56,382 nucleotides of DNA from Burkholderiaceae bacterium (GTDB taxonomy: Bacteria > Pseudomonadota > Gammaproteobacteria > Burkholderiales > Burkholderiaceae_E), in contig JAHBZV010000016.1 in the NCBI GenBank assembly GCA_019635275.1, forward strand, positions 1 to 56,382. The letters run 5' to 3'. Below the pieces are notes generated by a model. The model did not search any database. It saw only the letters and a list, made by a program, of their open reading frames with translations, and was not told the DNA's origin. This document shows, piece by piece, positions 24,896 through 25,690 of this stretch; the first letter of the stretch is position 1; every line of letters starts with the position of its first letter. Made by a program: the position numbers and the translations under genes.

Positions 24896-24947
24896 CATGC
24901 ACGCGCGTCCTTTTCGTGTCCGCAACCCCTTCCGATGTCGGCGCGTC

Positions 24948-25247
24948 GCGGCAGTCGGCGGCGAGCCTGGGTGCGGCGAGGCGTGCGGGGCGCATGCCCG
25001 GCGGGGCGATGACGACGGCGGTCGGTGCTGCGCACCGACTCCCCTGCGCTGCTCGTCCCGGGGTCGCGCGGCGAAACTCGCTACGCTCGCTGCGCGAGCT
25101 CCGCTCAGACAATCGCCGCGAGTCAGAAGGACGAAGCGCGCTTCGCGCGCCGACCCCGAGACTGCGCTGCTCGGCGCCGCCGACACCGCCCCGCCGGGCA
25201 TGCGCCCCGCACGCCTCGCCGCACCCAGGCTCGCCGCCGACTGCCGC
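24948..25247. repeat. Composite element 1: 61-bp perfect inverted arms
   Basis: The left arm 24948-25008 and right arm 25187-25247 are exact reverse complements over 61 bp (the left arm contains gcagtcggcggcgagcctgg). The 178-bp loop holds the hairpin at 25021-25039 and core copy B (about 25068-25151). Confidence 0.9.
25068..25151 (+). repeat. Shared core, copy B
   Basis: Contains gcggcgaaactcgct, then gctcagacaatcgccgcgag, then the 12-bp palindrome gaagcgcgcttc. The same order recurs on the other strand at 25419-25502 with mismatches concentrated in two short segments. Confidence 0.8.
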
Positions 25248-25418
25248 TCACGCAACGTCGATGGTGCGCGTAGCACAGACCGGAGCGTCGCTCTCGAACG
25301 CGACGGCGGCGGCTGCGAAGGCGCGGGCGACGGGCTGTGCGAAACGGCGCGCCCGGCGCAGGCCTCGGTGCGGTGGGCGCGCCTCGTGCGCAGCCGAGAA
25401 GCGCAGGAGCGCCGGCCC

Positions 25419-25502
25419 GCGCGCGAAGCGCGCTTCGTCCATCATTCTCGCGGCGATTGTCTGAGCGCAGCGCGCGTAGCGCGCGGAGCGAGTTTCGCCG
25501 CG
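25419..25502 (-). repeat. Shared core, copy B' (inverted relative to B)
   Basis: Its reverse complement gives gcggcgaaactcgct, gctcagacaatcgccgcgag and ggacgaagcgcgcttcgcgc in the same order as copy B. Confidence 0.8.
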
Positions 25503-25530
25503 GGGCCGGCGCTCCGAGCATCGCAGGGCA

Positions 25531-25547
25531 CCCCCGCGAAGCGGGGG
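25531..25547. repeat. 7-bp GC hairpin inside element 2
   Basis: cccccgc and gcggggg flank a gaa loop. No T-tract follows on either strand. Confidence 0.6.
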
Positions 25548-25690
25548 CAAGCACCAGGCGCGCCCACCGCACCGAGGCCTGCGCCGGGCGCGCCGTTTCG
25601 CACAGCCCATCGCCCGCGCCTTTGCACGCGCCAACCTTCCGCGCGACGCGGCTCGCGCAACGCACCGCGGAGCAACCGAGGAGTGATGTC

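Follow-up and report, generated by a model that had tools for sequence, protein, structure and literature searches.

Introduction

Large palindromes have a reputation for instability in bacteria. MITEs are short, multi-copy inverted repeats without a transposase, and the double-hairpin elements of fungal mitochondria are organellar and measure tens of base pairs. Among the closest described bacterial repeats are REPs, which are chromosomal, multi-copy, mostly extragenic palindromes, often arranged as head-to-head dimers that include some heterodimers (available sections of PMC3733652). CGTC REPs have no dedicated transposase and consist of 8-9 bp stems with loops of 4-5 nt; the stems of GTAG REPs measure 5-13 bp, and these repeats associate with a Y1 (RAYT) transposase (PMC3733652). 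Insertion sequences of the IS1111/IS110 type use such structures as targets, with ISPa11 inserting in REPs and ISKpn4 in attC (excerpts of PMC11187229). At the level of mechanism, the accessible text of PMC8604942 describes template switching as homogenising the arms of inverted repeats and states that it also inverts spacers, and multibase compensatory changes arise by template switching as well (accessible text of PMC8794818).

Here we analyse two convergent palindromic elements, A and B, that lie between ligI and ligA in a 56,382-nt stretch of Burkholderiaceae DNA (the window). They form one doublet of an old, multi-copy, chromosomal palindromic repeat family of Burkholderiales, and this family is real, widely distributed and unusual in its mode of evolution. 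Like REPs and BIMEs, its members are dispersed extragenic palindromes found as inverted dimers, and like CGTC REPs they have no dedicated transposase; the end of A happens to read CGTC before the palindrome. In place of short stems, however, the doublet has nested palindromes of ~300 bp, with 61- and 76-bp arms. The association of GTAG REPs with a Y1 transposase is a further difference: PF01797, the only transposase class searched for, gave no match in the copy-rich genomes G000 (the window's own), G002, G005 and G006, and exceeded the cut-off in 2 of the 18 genomes of the genus. Mirrored, copy-specific arms are not mentioned in the available sections of PMC3733652.

The elements resemble MITEs in being multi-copy inverted repeats without a transposase, but their arms vary copy by copy, no target-site duplication is evident by eye, and no partner transposon sharing their ends was encountered among the copies compared. 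They share paired hairpins and presumed mobility with fungal mitochondrial double-hairpin elements and GC clusters, a likeness of general description. Another likeness is to quasipalindrome correction, with its homogenisation of arms (PMC8604942) and its multibase compensatory changes in stems (PMC8794818). The available portions of these papers describe such correction as mutation events in genes, whereas in the A and B repeats it appears to dominate the evolution of the whole family and extends to mirrored indels. We found no description of the repeat itself in the open-licence PMC literature searched (including PMC3733652, PMC12306157, PMC8794818, PMC11187229 and PMC8604942), where it may go under other names.

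Layout of the doublet in the window

The doublet and its flanking genes comprise the following features.

23957-24895, + strand: upstream amidohydrolase gene (PF04909), named ligI in the initial annotation
24940-25636, no strand: whole convergent A and B doublet (ends conserved in copy alignments; occupied and short-spacer orthologous sites)
24940-24947, + strand: conserved 5' end of A, beyond the arm, GGCGCGTC (from the sequence; recurs with variants in other A copies)
24948-25008, + strand: left arm of A, perfect complement of 25187-25247 (inverted-repeat comparison)
25003-25191, + strand: conserved inner part of A, branched nested hairpins, overlapping the arm ends (nhmmer model A, covariation)
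25052-25053, + strand: CT dinucleotide, target of an IS110-family element in three other A copies, intact in the window
25067-25150, + strand: core copy 1, common to A and B
25187-25247, + strand: right arm of A
25248-25313, no strand: linker that connects A and B at their 3' ends, with partial conservation across doublets by eye
25314-25389, − strand: linker-side arm of B, complement of 25551-25626 with three mismatches
25374-25566, − strand: conserved inner part of B, overlapping the arm ends (nhmmer model B, pair counts on 35 B copies)
25419-25502, − strand: core copy 2
25551-25626, − strand: outer arm of B, with GCAAAGGCGCGGGC near its end in B orientation
25627-25636, − strand: conserved 5' end of B, beyond the arm, GGTTGGCGCG in B orientation (recurs with variants in other B copies)
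25691-26080, + strand: ligA, protocatechuate 4,5-dioxygenase subunit alpha (PF07746; TIGR02792 above cut-off)

Element A is in sense orientation, 44 nt past the amidohydrolase stop codon, and LigA/LigB (PF07746, PF02900) lie downstream of the doublet. We confirmed the two arm pairs reported in the initial annotation, one of 61 bp that is perfectly complementary (A) and one of 76 bp with three mismatches (B). When extended with mismatches, the pairs reach 73 nt (96%) for A and 124 nt (80%) for B. The inverted core that the same annotation had placed in both elements is also real, with 89% identity between 25067-25150 and the reversed 25419-25502, although its coordinates for the first copy were one base off. 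The longest perfect inverted-repeat arm measures 61 nt in the window, and in all 10 dinucleotide shuffles it came to 10-15 nt; a chance origin of the inverted repeats is excluded. Folding z-scores were -19.1 for A and -16.3 for B as RNA (100 shuffles each), and the doublet folded as DNA reached -23.5 (20 shuffles).

Elsewhere in the window, we observed that two diverged LigA-LigB pairs (25691-26937 and 29018-30212), both of the protocatechuate 4,5-dioxygenase type, lie ~3.3 kb apart on the same strand. Stretches within 48000-56000 are repeated 5.1 kb apart at 75-83% identity, which suggests paralogous genes.

Two subtypes of a chromosomal repeat in Burkholderiales

The window's own genome (162 contigs, 87% complete) holds 20 copies of the core at 14 loci, which supports the proposal that the palindromic repeat is multi-copy and carries no transposase of its own. 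The initial annotation had named copies elsewhere as its test, and absence of both arms and core from other loci, together with the same unrearranged spacer in related lig clusters, as the mark of a local, vertically inherited structure. With the core at 14 loci of this genome, that mark is lacking for the core. We found no close full-length counterpart of the window arms at the fetched loci. A MAFFT alignment of the 20 core copies separated two subtypes, A (GGGGCGATGACGACGGCGGTCGGTGC...core...CTGCGCTGCTCGGCGCCGCCGAC) and B (GGTGCTTGCCCCCGCTTCGCGGGGGTGCCC...core...TGCGCTTCTCGGCTGCGCAC), which are distinct and conserve their loops, inner stems and ends. Convergent A and B elements like those of the window occur at 6 of the 14 loci and in relatives too.

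Core matches were found in 16 of the 18 genus genomes, with at least 39 copies in G005, 21 in G017, 20 in G000, 19 in G011 and 16 in G006, and with one to four in G001, G003, G008, G010, G013 and G016; the same search gave no match in G004 and G007. Among 61 relatives, one further genus had a core match (G023). Across the order, a covariance model of the core matched at least 10 of 300 genomes, at least 6 of 134 genera and at least three families, counts that are lower bounds owing to the strict filters and to the scoring of no more than 14 candidates per genome. The single-contig genome G293, from another family, has six convergent core pairs among the matches listed, 261-262 nt apart, and the element ends CGTCGCGGCAGGCG and GCAAAGGCGCG are found again there, with variants. 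Scanning the genome collection for the pattern returned 88 stretches, mostly from Burkholderiales MAGs (80 are given as L163-L242); one of them, L173 from a Nitrospirales MAG, is not matched by the element models. We found no match among 50,697 phage records and none for an A query among 72,556 plasmid records, and a query from another family gave one weak plasmid match (76% over 51% of the query). A 3.6-kb contig of a MAG labelled Steroidobacteraceae (L167) carries an A copy at 196 bits, a genus-level score, perhaps through a binning error. In total we obtained 163 distinct element hits, of which 111 near-full-length copies were used (76 A and 35 B).

Arms match within copies and differ between copies

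Across copies, the arms range from 16 to 126 bp. Within copies, A arms showed 107 mismatches in 4813 positions over 71 copies (97.8% match; perfect in 22 of 71) and B arms 18 mismatches in 1166 positions over 32 copies (perfect in 18), after 5 of 76 A and 3 of 35 B copies below the score cut had been dropped and with some copies coming from other genera. For 51 A copies, the median local arm score was 144 within copies vs 26 between copies, and between-copy similarity is near background. No arm-sharing pair occurred among the A copies compared within G000 (7), G005 (19), G006 (8), G009 (5) and G014 (5), the best pair within these five genomes reaching 0.46 of the shorter arm; some short-armed B copies do share arms. 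The A arm of the window reached at best ~77% over the arm at other fetched loci and up to 90% over 29 nt. Under permissive scoring it aligned at 68-77% over most of its length at many fetched loci, which may reflect GC-rich composition or distant kinship.

In the genomes around G000, the A arms are thus copy-specific yet complementary inside each copy. At the ligI-ligA site of G014, the B core is deleted and a 39-bp arm pair is still perfect, which indicates that the core is not needed for arm pairing.

Orthologous arms change in mirror image

Many element loci are orthologous between species, and changes in one of their arms, even entire indels, are mirrored in the other. In 22 ortholog pairs, substitutions were mirrored in 433 columns and indels in 45 events that cover 464 columns; a further 91 columns changed on one side, 1 fell into another class and 950 were unchanged. 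These pairs share genomes and are not independent, extraction of arms by local alignment under-counts one-sided changes, and the arms that have diverged most align, column by column, hardly better than GC-rich sequence would by chance. Between G000 and G006, divergence at the window locus is 10% at 4-fold sites, and in the A arms it amounts to 20 of 55 ungapped columns and a mirrored indel of 17 nt. The slowest A pair (L119 in G005 and L138 in G009) has 9 mirrored substitutions in 107 columns and 90 unchanged. Because the lig genes of these two genomes differ at 14.4% of 4-fold sites, above the change in the arms, arm change is not always fast.

The inner parts of 20 ortholog pairs share 86-96% identity, which is close to the average over every copy pair from the two genomes concerned. 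Since orthologous inner parts are no closer than the average copy pair, they appear to be homogenised across loci. No clear spacer flip was found in the 10 main ortholog groups. At L113, L132, L134 and L135, A is in plus orientation in one genome and in minus orientation in another, and both orientations are present in two; from the sequences compared, this difference probably reflects loss of one member.

Inner stems and the case for copying at the DNA level

For the inner stems, 33 A copies were chosen for diversity from the 76. Double changes affect 28 of 50 pairs, 98.2% of 1648 cells are paired, and none of 500 shuffles covaried equally well. Two-sided changes account for 138 cells and one-sided changes for a single cell, compared with 108 and 82 for RNase P RNA in a control set of 18 genus and family sequences among the 30 fetched loci. 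Over all 76 A copies, we counted 220 double Watson-Crick, 5 G.U and 31 A.C cells, leaving aside one conserved G.U pair, and over 35 B copies 60, 4 and 8, respectively. The A arms contain 29 G.T and 47 A.C mismatches, with no excess of G.U in the sense direction.

Our preferred reading, with a probability of roughly 0.68, is that an old palindrome doublet of Burkholderiales keeps its arms matched by arm-to-arm copying at the DNA level and disperses as a unit. In single-stranded DNA, whether on the lagging strand, during repair or exposed by transcription, each element would fold into a long hairpin or cruciform, and a polymerase could switch template there and copy one arm from its partner. A mutation or indel in one arm would soon be written into the other; the two would stay complementary through drift and lengthening, and inner stems would be altered as double changes without G.U intermediates. 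The doublet would spread as a unit with short shared arms, in this genus mainly to sites behind the 3' ends of genes, and would then evolve in place and decay. We infer arm-to-arm copying from comparisons at the species level; no event was caught between near-identical strains.

The elements might instead be structured RNAs (3'-UTR or antisense ncRNAs, or terminator or processing hairpins) whose stems are maintained by stepwise compensatory mutation under selection. This would account for the strong covariation and the conserved unpaired motifs, and of the 43 locus clusters that could be assigned (from a total of 64; rough codon-usage caller), 39 have the gene 5' of A pointing toward the element. 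That orientation rule, however, is broken in four of the five G293 doublets with a called 5' gene (L304, L305, L308 and L309; L307 agrees). Compensatory change through G.U intermediates, as expected of a structured ncRNA, is not what the inner stems display, with one one-sided cell against 138, far from the 82 to 108 of RNase P RNA. The lack of a G.T excess in the arms, the mirroring of whole indels in both arms and the perfect arms of G014 despite its lost core also argue against selection on RNA, and 23900-26700 has no Rfam hit at E<=1. Template switching in hairpins, by contrast, predicts both mirrored indels and a near absence of one-sided changes, and copying at the DNA level fits better than stepwise RNA compensation. 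We consider the RNA explanation unlikely. An antisense RNA role is possible, as the excess of A.C over G.U (31 vs 5) corresponds to G.U on the opposite strand. In RNA, the hairpins might also uncouple transcription of ligABC from the upstream genes, as the initial annotation proposed.

Arm-to-arm copying inside palindromes could be followed here in a natural system, over dozens of copies and many species. This makes a long-standing question testable: how perfect hairpins persist, and when covariation does not mean selection on RNA. It also carries a warning that strong covariation, the usual sign of a structured RNA, may arise at the DNA level; in the A and B elements, the near absence of one-sided changes is the giveaway of such an origin. 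Given the reputed instability of large palindromes, it is surprising that they persist between genes and apparently grow there.

Inheritance of the window copy and probable dispersal of the doublet

We matched ligA in 13 of the 18 genus genomes and dropped the weak matches in G010 and G016. In the ligI-ligA spacer of the 11 genomes, A is present in five (four with A and B, and G014 with its B core lost), G015 retains a 206-nt remnant and G013 an apparent remnant; the spacer is short in G001, G002, G008 and G012, which are too diverged for the exact junction to be placed. The five A-bearing genomes and G015 form a clade with a support of 0.986, and the apparent remnant of G013 lies outside it. 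At this site the element is inherited within the clade of six genomes, and since its carriers fall in one clade, the window copy is inherited and decaying rather than the result of a recent hop.

In G002, five doublets at five loci (L142, L143, L169, L181 and L185) share A and B sequence. Their A arms of ~30-36 bp are nearly identical and their 130-nt flanks differ. These shared short arms suggest that the doublet is the likely dispersing unit, unless conversion between loci, which could also have produced them, homogenised the copies. The long, copy-specific arms seem to be derived, having lengthened and diverged in place. The five G002 doublets are possibly the youngest dispersal in the genus. 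No target-site duplication was evident by eye in these doublets or at two G006 sites. When L068 and L070 of G000 were compared with G006 and four other genomes, the element was absent from G006 at both loci. At L070, G006 retains a stretch resembling a B end, so at these two loci the difference may stem from either insertion or deletion.

Arms could also be gained anew at each insertion of a fold-back or hairpin-primed mobile element, with sites re-invaded independently in each species. Orthologous arms are indeed often near background similarity, and the A copies of G000, G005 and G006 that were compared have no arms in common. Yet some orthologous arms are clearly related through scattered mirrored changes (90 of 107 columns are the same in L119 and L138), G002 copies at different loci share arms, and the occupied ligI-ligA sites belong to one clade, the apparent remnant of G013 aside. 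This makes independent re-invasion quite improbable. We give equally long odds to a new kind of mobile DNA that would multiply via folded single-stranded intermediates, with fold-back priming remaking one arm from its partner in each cycle. Each lineage would then carry self-made, ever-changing arms around a conserved recognition core, whose loops (AACTC / CTCRRACA / AGTCAGA) would be read by a putative protein.

The initial annotation attributed the window doublet to two independent insertions of a mobile element, or to one insertion followed by duplication and inversion, and two related palindromes in opposite orientation do suggest such a history. It does not survive the comparison of copies and is very improbable: inner stems and ends set A and B apart as subtypes, their convergent arrangement is repeated across many loci and genomes and in other families, and G002 carries whole doublets with nearly identical arms at five loci. 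Least credible is an artefact of metagenome assembly. Many copies do lie in draft MAGs and some at contig ends, but the pattern is the same within a 3.73-Mb contig of G005 and in two genomes from other families that each consist of one contig (G293 and G247).

Reading frames and nested insertions

With the rough codon-usage caller, 3 of 146 loci (L130, L165 and L172) had an ORF centred on the element; the window locus had none. Some hypothetical proteins in Burkholderiales annotations are probably spurious frames of such repeats. The elements do not encode a transposase as an autonomous IS would; the transposase found in three G000 copies belongs to an inserted IS110-family element. This insertion occupies the same CT of A in L061, L062 and L063 (3 of 3 full copies in G000). 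In L062 (4092-5562), it encodes a 384-aa transposase (NF033542, E 8e-86) and has 11-bp subterminal inverted repeats. Insertion at one fixed base of A and the subterminal inverted repeats resemble targeting by IS1111/IS110-type elements, although A is a different palindrome family from REPs and attC. A guide-match comparison of the IS110 sequence with its A target found matches of at most 9 nt.

A different palindrome of ~165 nt lies inside element B at L114 (1964-2131), L119 (822-986) and L138 (1175-1339), near the position homologous to the IS110 site of A.
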